From assembly GCF_002709775.1 (NCBI RefSeq), contig NZ_PAQR01000002.1:1-64000 (forward strand): 64,000 nt of DNA. Reading direction: 5' to 3'. Shown here piece after piece: positions 9,502 to 27,441 of the stretch. Numbering within the stretch: position 1 is the first letter of the stretch; the number at the start of each line of letters is the position of its first letter. Origin of the DNA: Thalassospira sp. GTDB lineage: Bacteria > Pseudomonadota > Alphaproteobacteria > Rhodospirillales > Thalassospiraceae. The notes beneath the pieces were generated by a model that saw only the letters and a list, made by a program, of their open reading frames with translations, had not been told where the DNA came from and searched no databases. The translations under genes were made by a program, and so were the position numbers.

Positions 9502-9636
9502 AAACCAGACTTCCTTTCGAGTATCGTCACTATATTCTGGCCAACCGGTTGTGTCCGGTGGTCTTTGCCGCAAAATCGCGGCGATGTGTCATTCACTGTT
9601 CAAACCCGAACGCATGTGAAGGCGAACCTTCCATAC

Positions 9637-9669
9637 ACGAAAAGGTGAACGCACAAGTCGTTCACCTTA
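9637..9669 (-). terminator. Terminator after cmk
   Basis: Minus-strand hairpin AAGGTGAAC / GTTCACCTT with a 9-nt loop, followed by TTTTCG. It lies about 65 nt beyond the cmk stop and separates aroA-cmk from rpsA. Confidence 0.7.
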
Positions 9670-9733
9670 GGGACAGGCCATGTGACCGGTACCTCGGGAT
9701 CGTTCAACGCCTGACGGTTAAAACGCCTTTTGA

Positions 9734-10378
9734 TCAGTCATCCGCACCCATATGGGTATGGATATGTGCCATGACGGCATCAAACACTGCGTTGGCATTC
9801 AGACGGTCCGTATCAATATGGATTGCGTCATCTGCCATCTTGAGCGGTGCGACATCGCGAGCACTGTCTCGGGCATCCCGTTCTTCAAGCTCTTTAAGAA
9901 CGCGCTCGTATATAGCAGCGGGATTTTTTTCCTGCAACTGTTTGAACCGACGGTTTGCACGTTCTTCCACACTCGCTGTCAGGTAAAACTTGATCGGCGC
10001 GTCCGGGCAGACCACGGTTCCGATGTCACGTCCATCAAGAACCGCACCGCGTTTACCGCCCGGCGGGGTGGTGGCAAGGGTGCGTTGGAAATCAAGCAAC
10101 ACCTCGCGAACCCTTGGAATCGCTGCAACTTTTGAGGCGGCCGTGCCGACTTCCTCGCTGCGAAGCGCGTCACCTTCAAGATCGGCGGCACTGAGATTTT
10201 CTGCCGCACGAACCGCGACGGCTTCATCCGCCGGGTCGCCATTTTCGGCCAGAACTTTCGCACCGGTCGCACGATAAAGCAGGCCGGTATCCAGATAGGC
10301 ATAGTCCATTGCCTCTGCGACTCGACGTGCCAAGGTCCCCTTGCCGGACGCGGCCGGCCCATCAATGGCGATGATCAT
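9734..10378 (-). CDS. cmk: Cytidylate kinase
   Basis: A 214-aa P-loop kinase that phosphorylates CMP and dCMP. MIIAIDGPAASGKGT holds the Walker A loop at residues 7-14, LDTGLLYRA the CMP-binding region, and LDGRDIGTVVCPDAPIKFYLTAS the typical NMP-binding insert. The start is the ATG at 10378: a GGGAG site sits 8 nt upstream, whereas the in-frame GTG three codons earlier abuts it. aroA lies 95 nt upstream on the same strand, so the two are probably co-transcribed. Confidence 0.95.
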   Translation of the reverse strand: MIIAIDGPAASGKGTLARRVAEAMDYAYLDTGLLYRATGAKVLAENGDPADEAVAVRAAENLSAADLEGDALRSEEVGTAASKVAAIPRVREVLLDFQRTLATTPPGGKRGAVLDGRDIGTVVCPDAPIKFYLTASVEERANRRFKQLQEKNPAAIYERVLKELEERDARDSARDVAPLKMADDAIHIDTDRLNANAVFDAVMAHIHTHMGADD

Positions 10379-10473
10379 ATGGGTCACTCCCTGTGATTGA
10401 TGCTGCTTATATAAGTGCCGGTCAGAATGGTCGCTGTGACTTACATCAGTGACTTATATATTGGTCGGCCCGA

Positions 10474-11817
10474 TCAGGAATGCAGGGCAAATTTTGCGCC
10501 CATATCCCCCATCAGGGTTTCAAAGTTCGGGAAGCTTGTCGCAATCGGGTTGGCATCATCGACCGCAACCGGCTTTTCAGCGCCAAGACCCAGAACCAGG
10601 AACGACATCGCAATACGATGATCAAGATGGGTTTCCACCATGCCACCGCCCGGCACCACACCGCCGGTAACGATCAGATCATCGCCTTCGATCCGGTGGA
10701 TCACGCCATTGGCTTCAAGACCGGCTGCCACCGCCGCCAGACGATCAGATTCCTTCACACGCAGCTCTTCAAGATCGCACATGCGGGTTTCACCGTCCGC
10801 ATAGGCCGCAGCCACCGCAAGCACCGGATATTCATCAATCATCGACGGGGCGCGTTCGGCCGGAACGACAATGCCCTTGAGCCGGTTTTTGCCGGTCACC
10901 ACCAGATCGCCGATGGTTTCACCAGCTTCTTCACGCTCGTTGGTGATGGTGATGTCGCCGCCCATTTCAACAAGGGTGGTGATCAGACCGGTGCGCAGCG
11001 GGTTCAGGCATACGTCACGAATGGTAACGTTGCTGTCTGGGTTGATCAGGGCCGCAACCAAGGGGAAAGCGGCCGAGCTTGGGTCGGTCGGAACGACAAT
11101 GTCGGCAGCCTTCATTTCGACCGGACCGGTCAGGCTGACGGTGCGACCGCCATCGTCATTGACCTTCACATCAACATCCACGCCAAAGTGACGCAGCATG
11201 CGTTCGGTATGATCGCGCGACGGTTTGGGTTCGATCACGGTGGTGGTGCCCGTCGTATTCAGACCCGCCAGCATCACGGCCGACTTCACCTGCGCAGATG
11301 CCATCGGCAGGGTATAGGTCACGGGCTTTGCCTCATCCGTGCCAATCACTGCCATCGGCGGACGACCACGATCACGGGTGATGAATTGCGCGCCAAATTC
11401 GGAAAGCGGATCGGCAACACGGCCCATCGGACGTTTGCAGAGCGACGCGTCACCCGTGAAGAACGTCGTGATCGGATGGGTGGCAACGATGCCGGCCATC
11501 AGACGAATGCCGGTTCCGGCATTGCCCATGTCAATCACGCTATCGGGTTCACGCAGTGCGCCAACACCAACACCGGTCACATGCCAGGTGCCATCGTCAT
11601 CGCGGGTGACGGTTGCGCCCAGCTTGCGCATGGCGTCTGCGGTTGCCAGAACGTCTTCGCCTTCGAGCAGACCGGTGACCTTGGTCGTACCGATTGCCAG
11701 ACCACCAAACATCAGGGAGCGATGGGAAATGGATTTGTCACCCGGAACCCGGATATCACCCGAAAGCGGCCCGGCCTTGGCCGAGGAAAGCGGGCGTTTG
11801 GTTTGCGAAGAACTCAT
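10474..11817 (-). CDS. aroA: 3-phosphoshikimate 1-carboxyvinyltransferase (EPSP synthase)
   Basis: A 447-aa enzyme joining shikimate-3-phosphate and PEP in aromatic amino-acid synthesis. GDKSISHRSLMFG covers the N-terminal substrate-binding Lys and Arg. The PEP-binding segment reads MGNAGTGIRLMAG, the class II-like form rather than the class I NAGTAMRPL. C-terminal motifs include DEYPVLAVAAAYADG and LDHRIAMSFLVLG. I chose MSSSQTKRP, with CAGG upstream; a GTG seven codons earlier is an alternative. It is first in the aroA-cmk unit and divergent from the TIGR02300-type gene. Confidence 0.96.
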   Translation of the reverse strand: MSSSQTKRPLSSAKAGPLSGDIRVPGDKSISHRSLMFGGLAIGTTKVTGLLEGEDVLATADAMRKLGATVTRDDDGTWHVTGVGVGALREPDSVIDMGNAGTGIRLMAGIVATHPITTFFTGDASLCKRPMGRVADPLSEFGAQFITRDRGRPPMAVIGTDEAKPVTYTLPMASAQVKSAVMLAGLNTTGTTTVIEPKPSRDHTERMLRHFGVDVDVKVNDDGGRTVSLTGPVEMKAADIVVPTDPSSAAFPLVAALINPDSNVTIRDVCLNPLRTGLITTLVEMGGDITITNEREEAGETIGDLVVTGKNRLKGIVVPAERAPSMIDEYPVLAVAAAYADGETRMCDLEELRVKESDRLAAVAAGLEANGVIHRIEGDDLIVTGGVVPGGGMVETHLDHRIAMSFLVLGLGAEKPVAVDDANPIATSFPNFETLMGDMGAKFALHS

Positions 11818-13229: not shown

Positions 13230-14399
13230 TTAGGCCGATTTTTCGGCGAAGGCCCGGATGCGTTTGATGGCTTCGCGTAGTTCGTCGTCGGGCACGGTGA
13301 GGGCCACGCGGATCAGGTTTTTGGCGTTTTCGCCAAAGGATGCACCGGGCATGACCGCGACATTTTGAACATCAAGAAGTCCCCAGGCGAATTCTTCGCC
13401 ATTCATGCCGGTGCTGCCGACATCGATCATGGCGAACATGCCACCTGATACCTTGCCCGGTTTCAGGACGGTGCAACCGGCAAGCTCGGTTTCGATCATG
13501 TCAACGCGGGCGGCGTAGCTTTTGCACATGCGTTTGGCAGTATCGAAATTGCCGCGAAGGGCGACCTCAGTCGCATCGGCGATGAAGGGCTGATTGCCAA
13601 ACAGGATGGTCTCGGAAATCGGCAGCACCTTGGTGCAGAGTTCCGCGGGACCAGCGGCCCAGCCACTGCGAAAGCCGGTGGCGGCATAGGTTTTCGAGAT
13701 CGAGGATGTGACGATGGTGCGATCACGCAGTTCTGCGATTTCAAGCGGGGATGCGAAGGTGCCTTCAAACACCAGATCTTCATAGACCTCGTCACAGACA
13801 ATCCACAGATCATGTTCAATGGCGATCTTGCCAAGTTCGACCAGTGTTGCGCGATCAAGCAACGCGCCGGACGGATTGTGCGGCGTATTGAGCAGCAACA
13901 CGCGGCTTTCGCTGGTGATGGCGGCGCGCAGATCATCCGGTTGCATGATAAAGCCATGCTCGATCGAGAGCGGAACGGATTGCAGTTCCGCGCCCGACGC
14001 GCGGATCACCCCGGCATAGGTCGCATAATAGGGATCGCCGACCAGCACCCCTTGCCCGGCATCCACAAGCGCGGTCATGACGGTATAAAGGGCGGTCTGC
14101 GTGCCCGGGAAACACAGGATGTTTTCGGGGGTAATTTCCGGCCAGACGGGTTTGTATTTTTCGACCAGTGCATCGAGCAACCCCACCTCACCGCGGCCAT
14201 TGGAATAGTGGGTGCGCCCGCGCCGCATGGAGGCCTCGCACGCGTCAATCAGGGCCGGGTCGACGGGAATGTCAGGCTCGCCAATCGTCAGTTCGATGAT
14301 TTTTGCCCCTTCGGCCTCGCGATCACGCGCGGTGTTATGAACGGCCCATTTCGCCCCGCCCAGTTCGGCAAGGCGATCGGTAATCTTGGCATATCTCAT
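13230..14399 (-). CDS. Class I/II PLP-dependent aminotransferase
   Basis: A 389-aa fold-type I aminotransferase, aspartate-aminotransferase-like. Visible PLP contacts are Tyr124/125 in GDPYYATYAG, Asn175 in NTPHNPSG, Asp203 and Tyr206 in VCDEVYEDL, and the Schiff-base Lys236 in SSISKTYAATGFRSGW. It ends with an Arg-containing NLIRVALTV for the alpha-carboxylate. The start ATG overlaps the stop of the upstream TetR gene by 4 nt, so they are translationally coupled. The amino donor and acceptor cannot be told from sequence. It is about 5 kb from mmtN, too far to assign it to sulfonium metabolism. Confidence 0.9.
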   Translation of the reverse strand: MRYAKITDRLAELGGAKWAVHNTARDREAEGAKIIELTIGEPDIPVDPALIDACEASMRRGRTHYSNGRGEVGLLDALVEKYKPVWPEITPENILCFPGTQTALYTVMTALVDAGQGVLVGDPYYATYAGVIRASGAELQSVPLSIEHGFIMQPDDLRAAITSESRVLLLNTPHNPSGALLDRATLVELGKIAIEHDLWIVCDEVYEDLVFEGTFASPLEIAELRDRTIVTSSISKTYAATGFRSGWAAGPAELCTKVLPISETILFGNQPFIADATEVALRGNFDTAKRMCKSYAARVDMIETELAGCTVLKPGKVSGGMFAMIDVGSTGMNGEEFAWGLLDVQNVAVMPGASFGENAKNLIRVALTVPDDELREAIKRIRAFAEKSA

Positions 14400-15094
14400 G
14401 ACGGCTTACTTTGTTGTTCGCGGTGTGTCGGATGGCCGGTTGATTGAAGCGCAATATCGGGCACGGATAGCGCCCCGGCAGGCAATTCAAGCAGGCGTTC
14501 AGCAGCCCCCGTGATCAGGTCGGGCAGGATATCCTGGGCATAAAGACCAGAATTGATCGCCCCTTCCATCCAAAGGCCATCAATCAGGCCATTGAGCGCA
14601 ATCGCATGGTTGCGGCAAATTGCCACGCTGTACGGGCAGCCGTGATGGATCAGGACCGGCTCGATCAGGGTTTCAAGGACGCTTAGAAATTCGCGGTAGC
14701 CATCACGGTGAATTTCGGCAAAACCCGGATCATGACGCACACGACCAATGAAGGTCGCCCACAGCGACACGGTTTCTTCGTCCATGTTCGGACGGGTCAT
14801 GTTGGCGCGCAGGAAGCTTGCCAATTGGGCCTCGGGCGTGCCTTCGGCGGCACGTGCGCTTTCGCTGGCCTGCGCGGTTAACTGGCCGACCAGATAGGCA
14901 TAGGCATTGCGGATCATGTCATCCTTGCTGCCGAAATAATGGCGCACCAGCCCGACAGTGACCCCGGCTTCCTCGGTAATCCGGCGCACCGATGCCCCGT
15001 GCAGACCGTGGCGGGCAACACAGGTCAGCGTTGCCTCCATCAAACTGCGGCGGCGCACATCAAGCGACAGGCGTTGAAATGTTTTTCGGCTCAT
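14396..15094 (-). CDS. TetR family regulator (BetI-like)
   Basis: A 232-aa repressor-type protein. The helix-turn-helix spans about residues 33-54 (GASVRRITEEAGVTVGLVRHYF) after RRRSLMEATL, and the C-terminal half is a ligand-binding helical domain. The overall pattern is nearest to BetI-type TetR proteins, but no betaine genes are present. Stop and start overlap (ATGA) with the aminotransferase that follows, so it probably controls that gene and itself. The 126-nt region upstream contains an A+T-rich stretch with partial dyad symmetry that could be its operator. Confidence 0.9.
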   Translation of the reverse strand: MSRKTFQRLSLDVRRRSLMEATLTCVARHGLHGASVRRITEEAGVTVGLVRHYFGSKDDMIRNAYAYLVGQLTAQASESARAAEGTPEAQLASFLRANMTRPNMDEETVSLWATFIGRVRHDPGFAEIHRDGYREFLSVLETLIEPVLIHHGCPYSVAICRNHAIALNGLIDGLWMEGAINSGLYAQDILPDLITGAAERLLELPAGALSVPDIALQSTGHPTHREQQSKPS

Positions 15095-15220
15095 TCCCGG
15101 TTCCCGAAAGGCTGACGGATCGTGTGCCGACAGCTTTGCCTTCGCACACTGTTATACAATTGATTAATTTTAATCGGGTTTCAAGACTGCAATCGGATTT
15201 ACCCAACCCGACCAAGCTGC

Positions 15221-16177
15221 TCAGTAGCCCTGCCCGCGGCTAATCGCCAGGCTGAGCGGTTGGCCTCTATGCAGCTCGCGTGCCGATTGCAAGGCTTGCT
15301 CGGCAACGATGCGCGGTGTTGTATCACTGGCGATATGCGGCGTGATACGCAGGCGCGGATCCGCCCAGAAAGGATGATCGGACGGCAGGGGTTCGGTGCG
15401 AAAGACATCAAGGGTCGCGCCACTGAGTTGTCCGCTATCAAGGGCGGCAACCAGATCATCCTCGACCAGATGTTCGCCGCGACCGATCTGGATCAGCCAG
15501 GCACCCATGGCGACTTTGGCAAACAGGTCGGCATCAAGGACATTTTCGGTTTCGTCCGTCAGTGGCAAGACGTTGATCACCACATCCTGACCCACGACGG
15601 ATTTCAGAACCGAATCGTTGCCGGTGAAATAGTCCACGCCCTCAACCGGGTCGGTCGGCGCACGGCGACAGGCGACCGAGACGCTAAAACCACATGCCGC
15701 CAACGCCTTGACAACACTGGCCCCCATGGAGCCGTGACCAAGTACCGCAACCTTGAGATCGCGCGGTGGGCGAATCGCAGGTGGCGCCCATTCCGCCTTG
15801 GCCTGACTTTGCTGCATCCGGGCGAAGCCACGTTCAACATGCACGACTTCATGGACCGCATAACCCGCCATCAGATCGGCCTGATTGGGATCGCGCACGC
15901 GGCAAATGGCGACGTCTTTGTTCAAGCCCGGATGTTTCAGCAAGGCATCCACCCCGGCCCCGACAGACATCGCCATTTCGATGTTGGGATAGGGCGAAAA
16001 GGCCGCTGGCCCCGGCAGCCAGCAGACGGCAAAGCGGATCAGATCCGGGTTGGTGACTTCATCAGGATTAAGCAGGCGGACATCAGGGGCCGCATCACCG
16101 AAATCAAGCGAGTAATAGCTTTTGAGATCCATCGCATCGCTAAGAAGAACACCATAAATTGGTTCTGCCGCCGCCAT
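15221..16177 (-). CDS. ghrA: D-2-hydroxyacid dehydrogenase, GhrA-like glyoxylate/hydroxypyruvate reductase
   Basis: A 318-aa NAD(P)-dependent dehydrogenase. The nucleotide-binding loop is VLGHGSMGASV. The catalytic triad is visible as Arg in IQIGRGEHLV, Glu in DVFRTEPLP and His in ITPHIAS. The short N-terminal substrate domain (CWLPGPAAF, SVGAGVD) is as in E. coli GhrA, which reduces glyoxylate and hydroxypyruvate. A GGGGGC site precedes the ATG. It is divergent from the class II aldolase gene with about 160 nt between them, so the pair may be co-regulated. Confidence 0.85.
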   Translation of the reverse strand: MAAAEPIYGVLLSDAMDLKSYYSLDFGDAAPDVRLLNPDEVTNPDLIRFAVCWLPGPAAFSPYPNIEMAMSVGAGVDALLKHPGLNKDVAICRVRDPNQADLMAGYAVHEVVHVERGFARMQQSQAKAEWAPPAIRPPRDLKVAVLGHGSMGASVVKALAACGFSVSVACRRAPTDPVEGVDYFTGNDSVLKSVVGQDVVINVLPLTDETENVLDADLFAKVAMGAWLIQIGRGEHLVEDDLVAALDSGQLSGATLDVFRTEPLPSDHPFWADPRLRITPHIASDTTPRIVAEQALQSARELHRGQPLSLAISRGQGY

Positions 16178-16340
16178 TCGTAAAAGCCCCCTGAACAGTC
16201 ATTTTCAACGCTTTAGATCCCGCGTAGCGCACCCGGTTTACGGGCGCCGACACAAGAAAATTTGCGCTTTGGTTTCATCGTCAGTTAAACAAGTGTATAT
16301 CAAAGAGTAAAGCCGTTTGATCAGATCACAGGAGGCCGGG

Positions 16341-17129
16341 ATGCATATCGCGACACAAAAGGACGCCGAGAGCAGCGTCATGAGCGACCCAGATATCAGA
16401 GAGGCTGAAAAGCAGTGCCGGATTGAGCTGGCCGCCTGTTACCGGCTGGCCGCGCACTACAAGATGACCGATACGATCTATACCCACATTTCGGCCCGCG
16501 TGCCGGGCGAACCGGGGCACTTTCTGATCAATCCTTATGGCCTGATGTGGGAGGAAATTACCGCGTCCTCGCTGGTCAAGATCGATGTCGATGGCAACAA
16601 GGTCGCAGACAGCCCCTATCGGGTGAACCCGGCCGGCTTTACCATCCATAGTGCTGTGCATATCGGCCGCCATGATGCAGCCTGGGTGATGCATACCCAC
16701 ACGCGGTCGGGATTTGCGGTTTCGTGCCTTGAAGAAGGGCTGATGCCACTTAATCAGATCGCGCTGCAGTATTATGGCCAGATCGGCTATCACGATTATG
16801 AGGGCATCGCGCTTGATCTTGAAGAACGCGAGAGAATCGTTGAAGCGCTTGGCGACAACATCGCGCTGATCCTGCGCAATCATGGTCTTTTGACGGTGGG
16901 GGCAACCGCCGGACAAATGTTTTCCAATATGTTTTATCTAAACCGCGCGTGCGAGATTCAGGAGTCCACGCTGGCTATGGGTCGACCGCTTCGCAAGATC
17001 GATGATGCGGTGATCAAACGCGTCTCCGAACAGTTCAGCCAGATGGCCTATGACGATGGTGATGTGGCGCTTGAGTGGGACGCACAAATGCGCCTTGCCG
17101 ACCGCCTGGACCCCGGTTTCCGCGATTAG
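16341..17129 (+). CDS. Class II aldolase/adducin family protein
   Basis: A 262-aa protein of the L-fuculose-1-phosphate aldolase / adducin-head family. Metal-binding histidines are expected in VMHTHTRSGFAVSC and in the NHGLLTVGAT segment, and the substrate loop is GLMWEEITASSLVKID. Members are aldolases, epimerases or uncharacterised; the substrate here is unknown. A perfect AGGAGG lies 5 nt before the ATG at 16341, which fixes the start. It is divergent from the ghrA-like gene. The sequence turns A+T-rich directly after its stop. Confidence 0.86.
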   Translation: MHIATQKDAESSVMSDPDIREAEKQCRIELAACYRLAAHYKMTDTIYTHISARVPGEPGHFLINPYGLMWEEITASSLVKIDVDGNKVADSPYRVNPAGFTIHSAVHIGRHDAAWVMHTHTRSGFAVSCLEEGLMPLNQIALQYYGQIGYHDYEGIALDLEERERIVEALGDNIALILRNHGLLTVGATAGQMFSNMFYLNRACEIQESTLAMGRPLRKIDDAVIKRVSEQFSQMAYDDGDVALEWDAQMRLADRLDPGFRD

Positions 17130-17807
17130 GCTATTGCGCCAAAAGTTTTTTCTTTGATGAAGGCAGCTCCCTGACAATTCTAAATCATGGTTATCAGGGG
17201 AGTTGCGCTTAGTGATTTTATGTGAACGAAAATTGCGAACATGATCATACCCATCAAAATGATCACGAAAAATCTGCTGATTGGCCTCAACAAGAATCTG
17301 GCCGATGAAGGATCCTTTTCTGAATCTGAACGGCTTAAGAGTAGCAAAACGGCTTAAGAATAACTAAAAGACACCCAACATTAAACAACCCAAGCTCTTT
17401 CTACCAACTTGAGGCACTTAAAACCGGGAAACAATAGCTCTACTAACATGTTTTGTGAATTTTCAGCCAAGACGCAACCAATCCGTCAAATTCGTATTGA
17501 ACAATTTTCCTTGTTTGGAGAGTCGCGCTCATGGCAAGATAAGGTGGGCTTCCTTAGATTTGATGCTTCAGACAAGAAGCTCCTTCTTACCAAGCAAAAA
17601 AACTATAAGCGTGCTTAAGAAAGCTATTCAAACAGCAAAAAACGGCATTCGGCCGTCCAAAGACATGATAAAAATGAAAATCGAACTGAAGATACGAAAA
17701 TTAAATGAAATCAAAACGAAATATATTATACTGTCTTTAGTATAGATGATTAATTTTTACTCTTGTAGTTATTGATAAAATTTTTCTCCATTTATGAAAG
17801 AAGAAAT
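17130..17807. other. A+T-rich intergenic region upstream of the TylF-like gene
   Basis: A 678-nt stretch with no supportable gene. It starts with an imperfect hairpin (CAGCTCCCTGA / TCAGGGGAGTTG, about 17164-17210) that may end the aldolase transcript. It contains a short direct repeat ACGGCTTAAGA at about 17330 and 17350. Small Lys-rich open frames at 17409-17745 lack homology and good ribosome-binding sites. Base composition differs sharply from the flanks and matches the following gene, suggesting joint acquisition. Confidence 0.5.
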
Positions 17808-18581
17808 ATGAAGACGTTCCTCAAAGAAATTGATGCTAAATACTTAAATGGATTCCTTAGAAACGTCCACGGAATAATACCGGCATTACACCTGAAATAC
17901 AAAGAGTCCCAAGTTACAAGTATTCCGAAAAAATTCGAGGTAATTTTTTCCCTATCTGCTCGCTATGATTTTTTCAAACAAGCCCAATATTACTTACAAG
18001 TTAATAGAGTAGATGGTATCTATGCAGAGTTTGGATGCCACGAAGTAAATACTTTCCGGATGGCATTAAGAACTCTTGGCCTACCTGGAAGGCCAAACAA
18101 AATAAGCAAATTCTATGCATTTGACTCTTTTGAGGGAATGCCAGAACCTGAGGGCATAGACCGGCAGAAGATTTGGCGGAAGTCGATGAACGCAACTAGC
18201 GAGGAGGCCTTCTTACGCACCGTAAAAAAAGACCAACATCGTGTACGAACAGTAAAAGGTTTTTACGAAAACACGCTACCAAACTTCAGCTTTGAAGAAC
18301 ACGAAAAGATTGCCCTAGCTTATCTTGACTGCGACTATCACTCTTCCACAAAAGCTTGTTTAGATTTTCTGAATGGAAAATTTCAGCACGGATGCTTGTT
18401 AGCCTTTGACGATTGGGATTGCTACTACTCTGATCCGAAGCGAGGCCAAAAGCTCGCATTCAGCGAGTTCAAAGATAGCACTAAATCGCAATACTACTTT
18501 GAAGAGCTTTGCAATATCGCAAGTGGCGGGAAATGTTTTGTGGTTTTGGAAATAGATAAACTTGGCGTTGAAATACTGTAG
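17808..18581 (+). CDS. TylF/MycF-like SAM-dependent O-methyltransferase
   Basis: A 257-aa class I methyltransferase-like protein. The glycine motif is YAEFGCHEVNTFRMA; an acidic residue for SAM follows in YAFDSFEGMPEPEG; metal or active-site acids appear in LAYLDCDYHSST and LLAFDDWDCYY. This combination is that of the macrocin O-methyltransferase (TylF) family, often linked to glycan or natural-product modification. The start at ATG 17808 follows GAAAGAAGAA; an in-frame TTG lies 36 nt earlier. The gene is markedly A+T-rich with codon use unlike its neighbours, and stands alone: a probable horizontal acquisition. Confidence 0.8.
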   Translation: MKTFLKEIDAKYLNGFLRNVHGIIPALHLKYKESQVTSIPKKFEVIFSLSARYDFFKQAQYYLQVNRVDGIYAEFGCHEVNTFRMALRTLGLPGRPNKISKFYAFDSFEGMPEPEGIDRQKIWRKSMNATSEEAFLRTVKKDQHRVRTVKGFYENTLPNFSFEEHEKIALAYLDCDYHSSTKACLDFLNGKFQHGCLLAFDDWDCYYSDPKRGQKLAFSEFKDSTKSQYYFEELCNIASGGKCFVVLEIDKLGVEIL

Positions 18582-19095
18582 ATACCCAGTCAGCAAATCC
18601 TGACGCAGGTGATTAAAATTTAATCTTCGCGTCAAGTTGCGTAAAATATGATCAAATCCCTCCTTGACACCCACCCGCCGACTGCTACGATTGAATTCAA
18701 CAAGGTCGATCCGGAGAATTTTCCGGTGTGTTCTGGTCATGGTTTTGCACCCATCACGCGATGTGATTTTGCAACCTACCGCATTGAAAAGAATGACTTG
18801 TGCTGATGCGCGACAGTCGCAATGCGAAATGACATTCAAGACCAGAACGGGTTGATTGCCAAAATTGACCCTTGAGACCGCCCAGCCGACAGAGCCGGTC
18901 CTGAACAAGGCCTTCTGTCACGCCAAGGACGCCACCGTAGGGTGGCTTGATGCTGGGATCGCGCAAAGGTCGAGAGTGTTTCTGTTCGGTTGTCCGCAGG
19001 TTCTTGTGGGCATTGGGAACACGTCATGCTTTGGCATTCATCACCGTCCCGACGGTGTGCCGGAGCTCCTGTTTGCCAGACAAGGAGAAGACGAC
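18582..19095. other. Intergenic region, no confident gene
   Basis: 514 nt in which composition returns to normal. Small hairpins are visible (CCGGA/TCCGG at 18711-18726; GCCACC/GGTGGC at 18931-18946). A TTGACA at 18664 followed 16 nt later by TACGAT could be a promoter. Open frames on both strands look like non-coding shadow. A small RNA is possible but unsupported. Confidence 0.4.
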
Positions 19096-19314
19096 ATGCA
19101 AGTATCGAACACAATTGATTGCAACGGTTTGTCACCGGCCCCGACCCTTCTGCGGATCATGCAGGCACTGGTTGGCCGCGAAGACAGCGCATCGCCGCTT
19201 AATGTTCTGGTTGGGGCAGACTGCAATTGTGAACGTCTGGCGGACTCGCTTGGCGAACTGGCCGATGAGGTGCAGCTGGCAAGTGATGCAAAACAGTTTG
19301 CCCGCATCAACTGA
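19096..19314 (+). CDS. Small TusA/YedF-like protein lacking the catalytic Cys
   Basis: A 72-aa protein. The N-terminus IDCNGLSPAPTLLRIMQAL follows the pattern of TusA-family sulfur carriers (D-x-x-G-L-x-C-P-x-P then a helix), but the Cys-Pro motif is replaced by Ser-Pro and one residue is missing. Other cysteines occur at residue 9 and in GADCNCERLAD. The second half matches the beta-alpha layout of the family. A good AAGGAGAA site lies before the ATG. Longer in-frame extensions start at TTG and have no support. It lies about 290 nt before mmtN on the same strand. Family assignment is moderate; function unknown. Confidence 0.6.
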   Translation: MQVSNTIDCNGLSPAPTLLRIMQALVGREDSASPLNVLVGADCNCERLADSLGELADEVQLASDAKQFARIN

Positions 19315-19606
19315 TAGCGATTAACGGGCACGCCTTCGACCTGCCCACACCGCCGGCATGCCATTGCCGGCGCAACTCCCGCCCATGATGCTTATGGCAT
19401 CGCGTCGCGTAGCTGAGCGCGGCGAGAATAAAATAAAGCGCTGCGCATCGGCACAGGGGTGTGGATCACGGTAGCCCGCACCTTGCGGGTGGTGTGTCGC
19501 GCCAAAGCCATCTGGTTACCTTGTCACCGGGTCGTTTGGCGCATTTGACATGCTTGGCTTATGCCCGCGACCGGCTGATGCGACAGACGAAATAACAGGA
19601 AGCATT
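19315..19606. other. Leader region of mmtN
   Basis: 292 nt without a gene. It contains a GC-rich hairpin GCCGGCA / TGCCGGC at 19352-19371 without a T-tract, and further G+C-rich self-complementary stretches at 19440-19520. I did not recognise a known SAM or SAH riboswitch pattern. Confidence 0.4.
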
Positions 19607-20524
19607 ATGTTAGAAGATCCCGCCGACGAGAGCAGCGAGACACCCAGCCCATACGAAAACGATCCCGAGCGACCCGACTTTGCCTTTGATCCCGATGACC
19701 CCTGGACACAGACGTTTCAGGAAGGTCTTTCGCGCGCTAATCTTGCAGGCAAGACCGTTTATGAAGTCGGGGTCGGGACCGGCATCAATGTTGCCTTTAT
19801 CTTGCGAAACTGCGGTGCCAAGCGCGTTTATGGCAGCGACCTTGATCCCCGCCTTGTCGTTTTGGCAGAGCGCAACATCAAAAGCCTGTCGCCCGAACAT
19901 GCCAAACATTTCGAACCGGTCCATGGCAGCGTCAGCCTTGTCGATACCGACGAGGCGCGTGAAAAGGTTGCCAATACCGATGTGGTGATTGCCTGCATCC
20001 CGCAGGTGGGTGAGCCGGGCGACGAACGCCTGACCGCCTTTCGCGAGGCCCAGTCGATTGAGCTTGCCGAAGGCGCTGGCGACGAGGCCGAAGACCATAT
20101 CGCGCATTATTACCCCTGGAGCCTGTTTGACGAGTATCCTTATAACTCCGTCGGGCTGGGGCTCAATGAAGCATTGATGCGCCGCATTCGTGAACATGCG
20201 CCCAATGCCGAACTGGTGATGAATTTCGGCTGTCGCATCGGCACGGAGATCATCTGCGAATGCTTTGAAGCCAATGGCTATAAGCCCGAAAAGATCGCCT
20301 CGAAAATCGTGCTGCAGCATGCGGGCACCGATATTTCGTTCTTTGTGACCCTGGAAAAGGCACTGAGCGGAACCGGGCTTGAAAAGCAGCTAGTCTGTAA
20401 ATTCTATGCCGACCCGGAAGGCACGCAGCCGCTTTCAGCCACCAAGGCCCAGCAAATGATCAATAAGGATTCGAATGTGCCGCTCTATCACGAAGTGGCG
20501 GTGATTCGCGGCGTGCCGGTTTAA
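19607..20524 (+). CDS. mmtN: Probable methionine S-methyltransferase (MmtN-type)
   Basis: A 305-aa single-domain class I methyltransferase. Motif I is VYEVGVGTGINVAF (residues 51-64), with the SAM acid in YGSDLDPR. The motif IV position reads IACIPQVGEP (residues 128-137), matching the unusual GCIPQ seen in the methyltransferase domain of plant methionine S-methyltransferase. A Tyr-rich loop ending VGLGLNEALMRRI and then MNFGCRIGTEIICECFEANGY also parallel that enzyme (from memory). Bacterial MmtN makes S-methylmethionine, the first step of one DMSP route, and occurs in marine alphaproteobacteria. The start at 19607 has AGGA upstream. A strong terminator follows, so it is monocistronic or co-transcribed with the TusA-like gene. 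Confidence 0.75.
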   Translation: MLEDPADESSETPSPYENDPERPDFAFDPDDPWTQTFQEGLSRANLAGKTVYEVGVGTGINVAFILRNCGAKRVYGSDLDPRLVVLAERNIKSLSPEHAKHFEPVHGSVSLVDTDEAREKVANTDVVIACIPQVGEPGDERLTAFREAQSIELAEGAGDEAEDHIAHYYPWSLFDEYPYNSVGLGLNEALMRRIREHAPNAELVMNFGCRIGTEIICECFEANGYKPEKIASKIVLQHAGTDISFFVTLEKALSGTGLEKQLVCKFYADPEGTQPLSATKAQQMINKDSNVPLYHEVAVIRGVPV

Positions 20525-20553: not shown

Positions 20554-20586
20554 AACACCCCGTGACCGATGGTTACGGGGTGTTTT
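20554..20586. terminator. Bidirectional terminator after mmtN
   Basis: Hairpin AACACCCCGTGACC / GGTTACGGGGTGTT with a GAT loop and flanking A/T tracts. It separates the convergent mmtN (+) and TPR-methyltransferase (-) genes. Confidence 0.9.
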
Positions 20587-22001: not shown

Positions 22002-22661
22002 TCAGGACAAAGCGGCCCTGGCATCAAGTGTGCGGCGAATCCATGGGATAAAACCATAGAGAAAGCGCGTAGTGGCCGGCATGAACCACGCCCCGTGGTG
22101 ATACATCGGATCAAGCGAGGTGACGATGAGATGACCGGCAAAGCTGGTCGTGTCTTCATAAAGCACCGACCGACCGTCCTTGTAATCCACAAGTGATCTG
22201 GCATGGGGCGGCACATCAAACAGATCATGCAGATGCCAACTGACATCGGCCTTGCCGAGATCGGCAAACATGTCGTGTTCGCGTGCCGCGATTTCGAGGC
22301 CAAGGTCCGCGCCCGGTTCCAGCCACCACCAGAAATTGGTTTCGACCTGCTCGCGCGATACATCGGGCAGCCATTTTTCCTGCTCCGTATCGCCCATGGC
22401 GACCACCATGCCACCGCGATCAAGGAATGCACGTATGCGCTTGGCGTGCGGTACGATGACCTCGGCCGGTGTGCGGCATGAAATGATCAGGCCAGCGGCA
22501 TCTGTCAGATCCTCGTCACGCAGATCGCGGATATAGATGACTTCATCGATATGCGGCGCAATCCGGGGATCCTCGAGCGTTGCCTTGTGATAGCCCATGC
22601 CGCCATCAAGGGCGATCAGCTTCGGGCGGGATGGATTTGAAGTATTCATGGCCGTGCTCAT
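22002..22661 (-). CDS. Unknown protein, ThuA/class I GATase-like fold (second of an overlapping pair)
   Basis: A 219-aa cytosolic protein I do not recognise by name. The layout resembles ThuA or GATase1-like proteins: an N-terminal strand IALDGGMGYHK, DAAGLIISCRTPAEV, then FLDRGGMVVAMGDTEQEKW (a beta strand and Gly-Gly turn as in YVEAGGGLV of ThuA). Trp-rich segments follow (ETNFWWWLEPG) and a basic C-terminus. No nucleophile-elbow Cys with a His-Glu partner is obvious, so enzymatic activity is uncertain. The start is fixed by AGGAGG and an ATGA overlap with the upstream gene's stop. The pair forms its own operon between the MITE and the PmpAB-type transporter. Confidence 0.8.
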   Translation of the reverse strand: MSTAMNTSNPSRPKLIALDGGMGYHKATLEDPRIAPHIDEVIYIRDLRDEDLTDAAGLIISCRTPAEVIVPHAKRIRAFLDRGGMVVAMGDTEQEKWLPDVSREQVETNFWWWLEPGADLGLEIAAREHDMFADLGKADVSWHLHDLFDVPPHARSLVDYKDGRSVLYEDTTSFAGHLIVTSLDPMYHHGAWFMPATTRFLYGFIPWIRRTLDARAALS

Positions 22662-23317
22662 ACCCGTTCCTCCTGCCTTGCTGTTGCCTGCACCTGAATT
22701 GTCAGCCATTTGGCAAAGTTCGGGGCAAGCCTGTCTGCCGTCGTGCCAACACCGGCCTGGGCAAAGGTCAGAAAATCATTTCCCGCGTGACAGATGATAA
22801 TCCCGCCTTCCGGGCGGTGCCAGATCCAGTCGATGGGGGCCTGCATCGGATCTTCATCCATCCCGTTGAGCAGCACGGCCCCATCGGGTGCCGGATTATG
22901 ACCGCGCCCCCAGAAACCGGCAACGCCACGACGGAATGTCAGATCTTCGTCGGTTACACCGTCAAACAGCGGGGGATCTGCCAATCGGGTAATCCTGAGC
23001 CCCGCCAGATTGCGTTTCGGGCGCGGGATGAATTCACCAACCCCGTCAATCACCGGATAGGCCATCGGGCCGCTCCAAAGCACAACACCGCCGCAATCAA
23101 GATAGCGCGCCAGCACATCCTTGTTGGCGAGCAAGAAGCGCAAATCGGCATGAATGGAAATCGCAAGGGCGGCATAACGCGTCAGATCAACATCGGGCAG
23201 CTCATATTGGCCGAGCCGTTCAAAAATCACCGGGGCGAAGCGGTCCCGATCGGCAAGTGACGGGGCCATTTTATCAGGCCCGATACAGGCAACATGGATG
23301 TTCTGATCCGGATGCAC
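22658..23317 (-). CDS. Unknown protein, ThuA/class I GATase-like fold (first of an overlapping pair)
   Basis: A protein of about 219 aa of unknown function. An N-terminal strand IHVACIGPDKM, then YAALAISIHADLRFLL, then VLARYLDCGGVVLWSGPMAYPVI place the same fold order as in its downstream neighbour, suggesting two subunits of one complex or an old duplication. Later segments contain FWGRGHNPAPDGAVLLNG and GIIICHAGNDFLTF. The start is uncertain: I favour GTG at 23317 after GGATAAAG; an upstream GTG at 23347 and an ATG at 23269 are alternatives. It overlaps the next gene by 4 nt (ATGA). Confidence 0.75.
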   Translation of the reverse strand: MHPDQNIHVACIGPDKMAPSLADRDRFAPVIFERLGQYELPDVDLTRYAALAISIHADLRFLLANKDVLARYLDCGGVVLWSGPMAYPVIDGVGEFIPRPKRNLAGLRITRLADPPLFDGVTDEDLTFRRGVAGFWGRGHNPAPDGAVLLNGMDEDPMQAPIDWIWHRPEGGIIICHAGNDFLTFAQAGVGTTADRLAPNFAKWLTIQVQATARQEERV

Positions 23318-23715
23318 GTTCTTTATCCGTCTTGTTGATGTTCGCACCCGATGCCGGGGGTCAAGCAGACCCGCCCAAACATTTGTCAGGGTCTTTCGGG
23401 GTTATCACCGGCACCCCCGAATTGCAATTTATTTTGCGAACCATTCGCATATTTAAACATCAAGATGGTCTGTTGTGTATTGGCAGGGAACGGTTACGCC
23501 ACGTCCAAAAGCCCGCCACTCTCTCAGAACGGCTTCAACCCTGCCTTGCAGGATCATCATCTTCTTATCTTGAATTCTGCCTTAGCATCCCCAGTTTAAA
23601 AATGTTCTGAAACAGCGCGCTATCTCAGCGTTCCCTTATGGATGAGACAAAAATTTATCGACGCCCATTGATAAAATTAATGCATTCTCATACATTAATA
23701 TAAATTTCGATTTCA
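23318..23715. other. Divergent regulatory region upstream of the PmpAB-type operon
   Basis: About 400 nt without a supportable gene. The last 100 nt, before the YeeE/YedE gene, are strongly A+T-rich and contain the inverted repeat at 23676-23699. The rest shows nothing recognisable. Confidence 0.5.
23676..23699. promoter_or_regulatory. Candidate operator of the PmpAB-type transporter operon
   Basis: Inverted repeat ATTAATG-n10-CATTAAT, 17 nt before the start codon. The YeeE/YedE pairs of alphaproteobacteria are often controlled by ArsR-type sulfide sensors (BigR/SqrR) that bind A+T-rich dyads of this kind; that link is inference, and no such regulator is adjacent. Confidence 0.4.
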
Positions 23716-24162
23716 ATGGATTGGATGATGGAAAACTTCACGCCGGTTTCCGCCCTGATTGGCGGCGGACTTATTGGTTTGGCCTCTGGCCTTTATCTTT
23801 TGCTCAATGGCCGGATTGCCGGTATCAGCGGCATTCTTGGCGGCTTGTTGACCCCGACCAAGGGTGGCTCGGCCGTGTTTGAACGCCTTGCCTTTGTCAT
23901 CGGTCTGGTTGTCGGTCCGTTCATTCTGATGAATGCCACCGAGATCGCAGCCCAGAGTGTTGTGACAAGCTCGCTTCCGGTGATCATTGTTGCCGGTCTT
24001 CTGGTCGGTCTTGGCACCACGATCGGCAGTGGCTGCACCAGTGGCCATGGCATTTGCGGCCTGTCGCGCTTTTCGCTGCGTTCGCTGGTTGCGACCCTGT
24101 CCTTCATGGCGGCTGGTTTTGTCACCGTCCTTGTCACCCGTCATCTGATGGGAGGCATGTAA
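23716..24162 (+). CDS. YeeE/YedE family transporter subunit (PmpA-type)
   Basis: A 148-aa membrane protein with about four hydrophobic segments. It carries the family signature GLGTTIGSGCTSGHGICGLSR (Cys in GSGCTSGHG), with FSLRSL after it. Full-length YeeE transports thiosulfate; here the transporter is split into two half-size genes, as in PmpA/PmpB pairs, which handle sulfur-containing ions. The stop overlaps the next ATG by one base (TAATG), so the two are coupled. Start choices within the first five codons (three Met) cannot be separated. A probable operator lies just upstream. Confidence 0.88.
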   Translation: MDWMMENFTPVSALIGGGLIGLASGLYLLLNGRIAGISGILGGLLTPTKGGSAVFERLAFVIGLVVGPFILMNATEIAAQSVVTSSLPVIIVAGLLVGLGTTIGSGCTSGHGICGLSRFSLRSLVATLSFMAAGFVTVLVTRHLMGGM

Positions 24163-24587
24163 TGCGTACGATTGTTTCCCTGATTTGCGGCATGATTTTC
24201 GGCTTTGGCCTTTATATTTCGGGTATGATTGACCCGCAGAAGGTCCTTGGCTTCCTTGATATCTGGGCGATTGCCGATGGTGGCTGGGACCCGAGCCTTG
24301 CCTTTGTCATGGGCGGTGGTCTGGCAGTTGCCATTCCGATCTTCCAGTTTGCCAAGAACCGTACCGAAGCTGTGTGTGGCGGTGAGATGAGCCTTCCGAC
24401 CAACCGTGCCATTACCACCAAACTGATCGCAGGCGGTCTTCTGTTCGGGACCGGTTGGGGTCTGGTCGGCTATTGCCCCGGTCCGGCCCTGAGTGCGCTG
24501 GCATTCGGACATACCGATACGATCATTTTTGTTGTGGCAATGATTGTCGGTATGGGCGGTGCCCGTGCGGCCGGTCTGAACAAATAA
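24162..24587 (+). CDS. YeeE/YedE family transporter subunit (PmpB-type, DUF6691)
   Basis: A 141-aa membrane protein, the second half of the split sulfur-compound transporter. It shows the partner signature FGFGLYISGMIDPQKVLGFLD near the N-terminus and GTGWGLVGYCPGPALSAL in the second half, with the conserved Cys in GYCPGP. The start is the ATG overlapping the stop of the first half; longer upstream frames are shadow. It probably forms a heteromeric channel with the preceding protein. No sulfur dioxygenase or rhodanese gene is adjacent. Confidence 0.88.
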   Translation: MRTIVSLICGMIFGFGLYISGMIDPQKVLGFLDIWAIADGGWDPSLAFVMGGGLAVAIPIFQFAKNRTEAVCGGEMSLPTNRAITTKLIAGGLLFGTGWGLVGYCPGPALSALAFGHTDTIIFVVAMIVGMGGARAAGLNK

Positions 24588-25770: not shown

Positions 25771-27441
25771 ATGATCCAGAATTTGCGGCTGTATTCCGGC
25801 CTGACCATGTTTGCCTATGTGCTGATGCATCTGTTGAACCATGCCGCAGGCATCGTTTCACCGGAATTGATGCAGGCATTCGGCGAATACACCACCGAAG
25901 TCTGGCAGTTCCTGCCGCTTGAAATTCTGTTGCTGTTGTCGTTGGTGACGCACTTCTTCCTTGCCACCGGGCGCCTGACCAGCCGCCGTACCCTGCGTCT
26001 GCGCAAATCCGAATGGGCGCAGATGATTTTGGGTCTGTGCATTCCGTTTCTTATATTTCGCCATATCATCGCGACCCGGGTCATTGATCTTGGCTTTGAT
26101 GTCGATTCCCCGCATGAGCGTGTCTTGCTCGATCTGGCGGTATTCATCCCGTTTCAGGGGATTCTTCAGGCCATCACCGTCATTGTCGTCTGGGCGCACG
26201 GCTGTATCGGCATTCATTTCTGGCTTCGGGTTAAACCGTTCTATCCGAAATGGCGCAACACGCTTGGTACCCTTGCCATCCTGATCCCGACATTGTCACT
26301 GGCGGGCTATGCGGCCGCCGCCGCCGAAGTTGTCCGGCGGGCCGAGGAAGGCGGGCGCAAATACGTGTTTGGTGTGATTGATGCCGCCAATGTCAATCAG
26401 GCCGCCATCACGTTTTATGAAAACGCGATTGTGCCTTTCACGATCATCAGTATCGCCTTGGCCCTGGCACCGTTTGGCGTGCGGCAAATCCGCCAGACCA
26501 TTGATCGAGTCAAACGTGGCCCGATGCTAAGCCTGCCCAATGGGCGTTTTGTGCGTGTCCCCCCCGGGGCCACCGCACTTGAAGCGCTGCGCGATGCCGG
26601 GGTTCCGATGGCATCGGTCTGTGGCGGGCATGGGCGCTGCACCACGTGCCGCATTCATTGCGGATCGGGCACCGATCAGCTGGCAGCCCCCGGCCAGATC
26701 GAGGCAGCAGCGCTTAAAAGCATCCAGGCGCCCAAGGGCATGCGCCTTGCCTGTCAGATCAGGCCGCAAAATGATCTGGCGGTCGCACCACTCTTGCCGC
26801 CCAATGCCACCGCGCGCGATGGCCGCCGCCCCGGCGGGCTTTCGGGCAGTGAAAGACAGGTTGTCTGCATCTTTATCGACTTGCGCGATTCGACCAAGCT
26901 TGGCGAAAGCAAGATGCCCTATGACGTGCTTTTCATCTTAAACCAGTTCTTTGCCGAGATGACCGAGGCGCTGCGTGCGACGGGCGGTTATTACGCGCAG
27001 TTCACGGGTGATGGCCTGATGGCGCTTTATGGTCATGAAAGTGACGATATCGAACGTACCATCCTGCAAGCGTTCGAAGGCGGGGCTGAAATGCTGCGCC
27101 GGATCGAGGGGTTGAATGAACATCTGCAATCCGAACTGCCCCATCCGCTGCGCATCGGGATCGGCATGCATATGGGCAAGGCGATTGTCGGGGAAATGGG
27201 CCCGCCCGGCCGCGAAAATATCAGCGCGATTGGCGATACCATCAACACCACCGCCCGCCTTGAAGCCCAGACCAAAGGACATGGCGTGCCATTGGTGATT
27301 TCAAAGGCACTGTTTGATCATGGGCCGATTCCCTTGCCGGAAAACGCCGCCGTGCATGAGGTTGCATTGCGTGGCAAGAACCAGTCGGTGGCCTATTACG
27401 CACTTGATGCCATACCCGATCTGACAAAGACCAAGAAATAG
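25771..27441 (+). CDS. cyaC: CyaC-type redox-sensing class III adenylate cyclase
   Basis: A 556-aa protein with three modules. Residues 1-240 form a six-helix membrane domain with histidines at 20, 24, 61, 98, 143 and 149, resembling the diheme-B anchor of succinate dehydrogenases. Residues 250-345 form a [2Fe-2S] ferredoxin domain with Cys284, Cys290, Cys293 and Cys328 (C-x5-C-x2-C-n34-C). Residues 362-545 form a class III cyclase with metal Asp370 (FIDLRDST) and Asp414 (FTGDGLMALYG) and the transition-state Asn/Arg in GDTINTTARLE. The architecture is that of Sinorhizobium CyaC, whose heme is reported to respond to the quinone pool. It makes cAMP in answer to respiratory state (inference here). 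Confidence 0.88.
   Translation: MIQNLRLYSGLTMFAYVLMHLLNHAAGIVSPELMQAFGEYTTEVWQFLPLEILLLLSLVTHFFLATGRLTSRRTLRLRKSEWAQMILGLCIPFLIFRHIIATRVIDLGFDVDSPHERVLLDLAVFIPFQGILQAITVIVVWAHGCIGIHFWLRVKPFYPKWRNTLGTLAILIPTLSLAGYAAAAAEVVRRAEEGGRKYVFGVIDAANVNQAAITFYENAIVPFTIISIALALAPFGVRQIRQTIDRVKRGPMLSLPNGRFVRVPPGATALEALRDAGVPMASVCGGHGRCTTCRIHCGSGTDQLAAPGQIEAAALKSIQAPKGMRLACQIRPQNDLAVAPLLPPNATARDGRRPGGLSGSERQVVCIFIDLRDSTKLGESKMPYDVLFILNQFFAEMTEALRATGGYYAQFTGDGLMALYGHESDDIERTILQAFEGGAEMLRRIEGLNEHLQSELPHPLRIGIGMHMGKAIVGEMGPPGRENISAIGDTINTTARLEAQTKGHGVPLVISKALFDHGPIPLPENAAVHEVALRGKNQSVAYYALDAIPDLTKTKK

Follow-up and report, generated by a model that had tools for sequence, protein, structure and literature searches.

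Which product does a methionine S-methyltransferase gene of the MmtN type serve in Thalassospira, and which genes act together with it? We addressed this question in a stretch of 64,000 nucleotides (the window) from Thalassospira sp. (assembly GCF_002709775.1, contig NZ_PAQR01000002.1, positions 1 to 64,000), in which one open reading frame (ORF) had been predicted to be mmtN. The nearest relatives also place the genome in Thalassospira, with 98% protein identity to Thalassospira sp. HJ. This gene is a marker for bacterial dimethylsulfoniopropionate (DMSP), a major marine sulfur compound. Thalassospira is a typical DMSP-producing genus with mmtN (PMC8543147, citing Williams et al. 2019), an mmtN-containing Thalassospira tepidiphila is reported to show a rise of its DMSP in seawater (PMC8004995), and mmtN in the Tara data originates mostly from Thalassospira (PMC10989797). 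The gene itself is therefore not new, being already known in this genus. We propose that it belongs to a six-gene cassette for DMSP with its own route, an operator pair, and a small protein that would help MmtN. For this combined statement we estimate a probability of about 0.5; the part that concerns MmtN is far surer.

Identity of the methyltransferase

19607..20524, plus strand: mmtN, methionine S-methyltransferase, 305 amino acids (phmmer match to 7vvv with E 1.2e-122; identity at 181 of 286 positions; all 11 checked positions conserved)

The ORF lies exactly where it had been predicted. It begins with an ATG at 19607, its stop codon ends at 20524, and AACAGGAAGCATT is located immediately 5'. 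An alternative in-frame start at 19550 gives a longer ORF; position 19607 was kept because nine of 15 aligned relatives have a Met there, although this comparison tests the start only in part, the rows of the relatives having been trimmed to the extent of the query.

A search with phmmer against solved structures, the comparison with characterised MmtN that had been suggested along with the prediction, yielded the crystallised enzyme from Roseovarius indicus B108 (PDB 7vvv, 7vvw, and 7vvx) as best match; the second match had an E-value of 0.026. The alignment to the R. indicus enzyme is gap-free, and its 63.3% identity exceeds the 50% above which Group I MmtN enzymes resemble each other (PMC9135737). 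Enzymes of this group produce S-methylmethionine (SMM) from methionine and S-adenosylmethionine (SAM), and are inactive on 4-methylthio-2-hydroxybutyrate (MTHB) or methylmercaptopropionate (MMPA). The checked positions, which comprise SAM, Met, gating, and phosphate-pocket or trimer residues, were taken from the structural paper PMC9135737. The SAM ligands Asp69, Ser101, Leu102, and Cys121 correspond to D78, S110, L111, and C130 of the window enzyme, and the GxGxG motif is GVGTG at position 55. The Met ligands Glu127, Arg132, and Glu250 are E136, R141, and E259, and the residues Pro169 and Arg183 of the phosphate pocket in the trimer are P178 and R192; His158 and Tyr160 are conserved as well. 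The same paper names a loop His158-Tyr162, yet the deposited aligned chain contains a Trp at 162, which is probably a slip in the text.

For an alignment, 16 of 19 mmtN rows were used; two loci that are 98% identical to a third (L006 and L015 to L005) and a fragment (L018) were omitted. In these 16 rows, Glu127 is replaced by Asp in seven and by Thr in one, Arg132 by His in two, and Arg183 by His and by Gln in one each. The unusual motif CIPQ, which had been noticed in place of the common motif IV, is found at 130-133, with C130, P132, and Q133 being invariant. Likewise, both segments that had been named as conserved, GLGLNEALMRRI and NFGCRIG, are present, and residues G183-L186 and N206-G208 do not vary among the rows.

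In a tree of 17 rows, which was rooted at the midpoint without an outgroup and contains no Group II or III sequences, the window enzyme is placed within Thalassospira, and R. indicus MmtN groups with those of Roseovarius confluentis and Pseudoruegeria. In contrast to MMT (Group III), which has an extra C-terminal aminotransferase domain and a size of about 115 kDa, the 305-residue protein matches methyltransferase families only. Its Pfam and NCBIfam matches are generic or unrelated methyltransferase families without an MmtN model among them; PF06325 (PrmA) is reached barely above the cut-off (23.5 bits versus 22). Genes of this kind may therefore escape annotation pipelines. Identity to the crystallised enzyme, ligand residues, and tree all bear out the original prediction, and judged by its sequence the gene is almost certainly a genuine mmtN.

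A six-gene cassette and the route it may encode

What happens to SMM? In the route that we propose, MmtN would transfer the methyl group of SAM to the sulfur of methionine and would thus be the committing enzyme of the cassette. The aminotransferase would convert SMM to 4-dimethylsulfonio-2-oxobutyrate (DMSOB), the dehydrogenase would convert DMSOB to 4-dimethylsulfonio-2-hydroxybutyrate (DMSHB), and the aldolase-fold protein, working with Fe(II) and O2 in the manner of NovR/CloR, would generate DMSP from DMSHB by oxidative decarboxylation. A BetI-like repressor would act via two operators on its own promoter and on the divergent promoters of dehydrogenase and aldolase-fold gene, and a TusA-like protein of 72 residues would aid MmtN itself. 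In addition to mmtN, the cassette comprises the following genes:

13230..14399, minus strand: class I/II pyridoxal phosphate (PLP) aminotransferase-family protein, 389 amino acids, proposed SMM aminotransferase (PF00155, E 5.1e-54; present in 12 of 29 Thalassospira genomes, those that have mmtN)
14396..15094, minus strand: TetR-family regulator with BetI-type C-terminal domain (PF13977, E 5.6e-16; PF00440, E 4.5e-12; in 15 of 15 cassette loci, L002 to L016)
15221..16177, minus strand: D-isomer 2-hydroxyacid dehydrogenase, GhrA-like, 318 amino acids, proposed DMSOB reductase (PF02826, E 3e-38; orthologue with 73-100% identity in the 12 of 29 genomes with mmtN)
16341..17129, plus strand: class II aldolase/adducin-fold protein, 262 amino acids, proposed iron-dependent DMSHB oxidative decarboxylase (NF005451, PRK07044 subfamily, E 1.1e-107, above cut-off)
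19096..19314, plus strand: small gene, 72 amino acids, divergent TusA-like without the CPxP cysteine, companion of mmtN (16 of 16 cassettes; homologues in four of four decarboxylase-type clusters)

The original prediction held that later DMSP genes are not adjacent to mmtN. This is probably wrong: candidates are located at 13230-17129, that is 2.5 to 6.4 kb upstream, and orthologues of the three putative enzyme genes among them are found in exactly those 12 of 29 Thalassospira genomes that have mmtN. A low-GC insert of about 1.4 kb (approximately 17255-18609; GC 0.389 versus 0.553 for the window) accounts for part of the distance in this strain; it lies between the aldolase-fold gene on one side and the small gene and mmtN on the other. 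The insert carries a gene for a TylF-like methyltransferase (17808-18581; PF05711, E 8.9e-13) and was not found in L002 to L019.

By means of tblastn with the window proteins, the order aminotransferase (minus), TetR (minus), dehydrogenase (minus), aldolase-fold protein (plus), mmtN (plus) was detected in 15 of 18 named mmtN loci: in all nine from Thalassospira and in six of nine from other genera, namely Flavimaribacter, a Pararhizobium metagenome-assembled genome (MAG), a Rhizobiaceae MAG, Novosphingobium indicum, Croceicoccus, and Jiella. Those genes of the right-hand Thalassospira flank that were searched with tblastn were not found in these six loci. The order is absent from L017 and L019, which belong to another cluster type, and from L018, an apparent relic. 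In the latter, a Rhodospirillum MAG (9424-10711), an aminotransferase fragment with a stop abuts an mmtN that lacks its first 68 residues; misassembly is possible. Within the genus, orthologues (at least 73% identity) of mmtN, aminotransferase, dehydrogenase, aldolase-fold gene, and small gene all occur in the same 12 of 29 genomes, and the remaining 17 contain none of the five or distant paralogues only. The E-value thresholds of this five-gene survey were 1e-3 for mmtN and the small gene, 1e-80 for the aminotransferase, and 1e-40 for dehydrogenase and aldolase-fold protein.

The account of the cassette is based on homology, conserved residues, cluster conservation, co-occurrence, and operator conservation; what the downstream enzymes act on, which metal is used, which ligand the regulator binds, and how the small protein functions are inferred from these. 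The cassette probably makes DMSP. The steps from SMM via DMSOB to DMSHB are suggested by the homology of aminotransferase and dehydrogenase, and both intermediates are listed among the abbreviations for the pathway figure in PMC9135737. According to PMC11306096, knowledge of DMSHB decarboxylation is lacking and the enzymes of DMSP-producing bacteria, DsyD apart, are unidentified; the cassette offers a concrete candidate for this step.

The aldolase-fold protein combines a class II aldolase fold with three histidines, H118, H120, and H181, which are invariant in 17 rows, and thus has the fold and the metal-binding triad of the NovR/CloR-type oxygenases. NovR/CloR hold iron on three His residues and, with O2, decarboxylate oxidatively a 2-oxo acid and then a 2-hydroxy acid. 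The aldolase-fold protein shares fold and three-His motif with NovR/CloR, TqaM, and pyruvic oxime dioxygenase (POD) at identities of 23-29%; the substrates of these enzymes are unrelated to DMSHB. An AlphaFold model (pLDDT 79, pTM 0.82) ranked by Z the structures 3ocr (uncharacterised), NovR, 4xxf, TqaM, POD, and adducin in this order, all before FucA, with differences in Z within 1 counting as ties. Ranked by Foldseek E-value, the order was 3ocr, adducin, TqaM, 4xxf, POD, NovR. Among the matches is a TqaM structure with D-3-phenyllactic acid, which is a 2-hydroxy acid. The dehydrogenase matched the GhrA model at E 7.7e-51, below the equivalog cut-off.

Paralogues of the aldolase-fold protein (50%) and of the dehydrogenase (38%) occur together at a second locus of the same genome (L033, contig C14, 12000-31000) and are both present in the same 10 of 29 genomes. 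Pairing and co-occurrence support a functional link between the two proteins. This locus also contains a class III aminotransferase and, by eye, a deacetylase-like protein, an ABC peptide-type transporter, an amidase, and FAD oxidase-like genes; it perhaps serves the catabolism of an amino compound.

Small gene, second cluster type, and operators

Is this gene content typical of mmtN loci? In four of four loci of another type (L017, L019, L066, and L067), a diaminopimelate decarboxylase (DAPDC)-like decarboxylase and a class III aminotransferase are encoded upstream of mmtN. The assignment is based on Pfam in L017 and L019, and on tblastn with the L019 proteins in L066, a plasmid of Rhodovulum sp. 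P5 (78% and 66% for the two proteins), and in L067, plasmid p_4 of Rhizobium lusitanum (51-65% and 58%). The Rhodovulum mmtN (L066, 8001-8857) and the Rhizobium aminotransferase (L067, 5009-6375) each match in two frames and may be broken or misread. In L067, which is from a root-nodule strain, mmtN, the small gene, and the decarboxylase gene are separated by a few kb from genes for polyketide synthases, and a secondary metabolite may be supplied with SMM or DMSP in this strain. The mmtN genes of Roseovarius confluentis and Pseudoruegeria, the allies of the R. indicus enzyme, adjoin this decarboxylase-aminotransferase pair, unlike the window cassette.

By its names, the gene set corresponds to SMMDC and DMSPAAT of Streptomyces mobaraensis, which together with DMSPADH have been named for the conversion of SMM to DMSP (PMC12542666). 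That route leads from SMM to DMSP like the one proposed here, but begins with the decarboxylation and proceeds via DMSP-amine and DMSP-aldehyde. The two cluster types agree with the division of Group I mmtN clusters into a Novosphingobium and a Streptomyces type (PMC9135737). That paper states that the neighbours of mmtN in clusters of the Novosphingobium sp. BW1 type likely encode downstream DMSP enzymes; the available text does not name their functions. The same cassette as in the window occurs in Novosphingobium indicum (L013), the BW1 sequence itself lying outside our comparison. In the portion of the literature text covered, figures and supplements apart, the cassette had no assigned function and the small protein was not mentioned; the founding paper of Williams et al. 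2019 may already describe the neighbours.

Apart from mmtN, the small gene is the only gene that was found to be common to both cluster types. In the cassettes it is located between the aldolase-fold gene and mmtN; in all 16 it has an ATG, a GGAG within 20 bases upstream, and an excess of differences in third codon positions (0/0/6 for the three positions versus L002, 12/8/32 versus L008). In six-frame translations of five loci, its profile matched the four decarboxylase-type loci with E-values of 3.7e-20, 1.6e-18, 2.9e-18, and 1.1e-7, and L018 at best with 0.81. In the four decarboxylase-type loci it lies directly 5' of the decarboxylase gene, whose start it overlaps by a few bases in L017, L066, and L067. 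Altogether, 20 of 21 mmtN loci contain the gene (the window, L002 to L017, L019, L066, and L067). Among 385 alphaproteobacterial genomes, with at most 14 candidates scored in the genomes listed, the source genome alone has the family (E <= 1e-4), and likewise mmtN. The family thus seems to be uncommon where mmtN is lacking; on companionship, a sample with a single mmtN genome says little.

The hallmark of TusA is the sulfur-carrying cysteine of the CPxP motif. It is missing in the small proteins: the residue after GLS is P, T, N, E, or A in 17 of 18 aligned rows, and the remaining row has GLT with a subsequent S. The N-terminal pattern DCxGLS...LRxxQAL and the order of helices and strands in a model are nevertheless those of the TusA/SirA family (PF01206). 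This family matched two members with E-values of 3.8e-4 and 6.6e-4, two more with 0.12 and 0.2, and none of the other 14; the best score, 20.7 bits, does not reach the gathering cut-off of 28.6. The small gene looks new. A role of its product as a partner of MmtN is conceivable, with odds somewhat below even. If it is true, the lack of the small protein in MmtN assays could be one reason for the poor Michaelis constants of the purified R. indicus enzyme, 15.3 mM for Met and 6.2 mM for SAM (PMC9135737).

Two operators were predicted in the cassette:

16283..16303, plus strand: operator 1 (predicted), AGTTAAACAAGTGTATATCAA, located between dehydrogenase gene and aldolase-fold gene, which are divergent (conserved dyad-like box, 16 of 16 cassettes)
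15149..15169, minus strand: operator 2 (predicted), 5' of the TetR gene (highest-scoring site beyond the training region, 16 of 16 cassettes)

The operator matrix was trained exclusively on the boxes between dehydrogenase and aldolase-fold gene and was used to scan outside this region. In all 16 loci, its top site was in the region 5' of the TetR gene, compared to a maximum of 13 and a mean of 0.62 for 300 column-shuffled matrices. The 16 loci are related and hence not independent; beyond Thalassospira, at least five named genera are represented. The conserved pair looks new. With 98.9 bits versus a cut-off of 118 and 98.7 versus 201.3 for the BetI equivalogs of NCBIfam, the putative regulator is BetI-like but not BetI, and a betaine-like ligand such as DMSP or SMM would suit it.

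Weighing the routes, and further genes of the window

Several findings weigh against the account given above. None of the top four operator sites per locus is near mmtN or the small gene. For the small protein, the TusA link is weak, and Foldseek found no match to its model at E <= 0.001. Proteins with a class II aldolase fold serve many functions; the His triad is also that of FucA, and iron and zinc cannot be told apart from the sequence, such that the chemistry is not fixed. By Foldseek E-value, the first known relatives after 3ocr are adducins, followed by TqaM, and NovR is found only at rank 20. By Z, adducin (26.0) and 4xxf (27.3; labelled as fuculose-1-phosphate aldolase) are near too, in addition to NovR. 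The wider aldolase family is common in genomes that lack mmtN: at E <= 1e-70, 99 of the 384 other genomes of Alphaproteobacteria contain it, with no more than 59% identity. The best NCBIfam model for the aminotransferase is the PLP cyclodehydratase GntC (236.6 bits versus a cut-off of 415); the methionine aminotransferase model scores lower still and also stays below its cut-off. Finally, clusters of the decarboxylase type reach DMSP otherwise, and the presence of mmtN therefore does not dictate the proposed route. The exact sequence SMM, DMSOB, DMSHB, DMSP is hence put forward tentatively, as one we would not quite bet on. A still broader proposal has to be considered doubtful: that a TusA-derived, cysteine-less partner serves MmtN whichever route follows, and that a further bacterial DMSP route methylates first and uses an aldolase-fold DMSHB decarboxylase distinct from DsyD.

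The genes of the cassette might also act in a different order. DMSOB would then be the substrate of the aldolase-fold protein, and its decarboxylation would yield DMSP-aldehyde or, if oxidative, DMSP; the dehydrogenase would function elsewhere in the scheme. The same cassette evidence applies, and NovR/CloR act first on a 2-oxo acid. However, the dehydrogenase is a member of the D-2-hydroxyacid and not of the aldehyde dehydrogenase family, to which none of the six cassette proteins has a match among those listed; we regard this order as unlikely.

A route as in plants or Streptomyces, whose SMM decarboxylase, DMSP-amine aminotransferase, and aldehyde dehydrogenase would be encoded outside a cassette that is unrelated to DMSP, would be in line with the decarboxylase-type loci. 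In the genome at hand, however, the Roseovarius decarboxylase has matches of only 27% and 30%, values that ordinary LysA-type enzymes would be expected to give (the comparison did not include the Streptomyces protein), and the exact co-occurrence of cassette and mmtN would be left unexplained. Such a division of labour is improbable here.

The original prediction had also considered SMM as a mere sulfonium store. This idea has lost its support because it depended on the non-adjacency of DMSP genes, and a conserved cassette for an aminotransferase, a dehydrogenase, and an aldolase-fold protein is located upstream. In a related version, the pathway ends with SMM, or SMM takes part in a cycle that stores methyl groups or sulfur and is closed by homocysteine S-methyltransferase. 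Two PF02574 proteins are encoded in the genome, neither of them within the window. The stronger one has the length of the MetH N-terminus, lies beside a metF-like gene, and is probably a housekeeping protein; the second (contig C34), without an NCBIfam match at E <= 1e-20, is still a candidate. Given that Thalassospira with mmtN produce DMSP (PMC8543147, PMC8004995), we consider this version very unlikely. Equally little speaks for another sulfonium product such as DMSHB itself as an osmolyte, which aminotransferase and reductase alone would yield and for which a physiological role is suspected in a cyanobacterium (PMC11306096), but mmtN-bearing relatives accumulate DMSP (PMC8543147, PMC8004995).

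Directly 3' of mmtN, one further feature was predicted:

20554..20584, plus strand: terminator-like hairpin (14-pair stem; from a consensus scan alone, which found 8 versus 5.2 expected in shuffles)

Two adjoining ORFs on the minus strand (22002-23347; 235 and 229 amino acids, overlapping by about 50 bases) have no Pfam match at E 0.001; among L002 to L019, strong homologues occur only in L002, and L007 contains one weak match of 36%. A pair of sulfur-transport-like membrane proteins (PF04143, PF20398) is encoded at 23716-24587, 3.2 kb past mmtN. The product of 25771-27441 combines N-terminal hydrophobic segments (by eye) with a 2Fe-2S ferredoxin domain and an adenylate/guanylate cyclase domain, and is present in nine of nine named Thalassospira loci.
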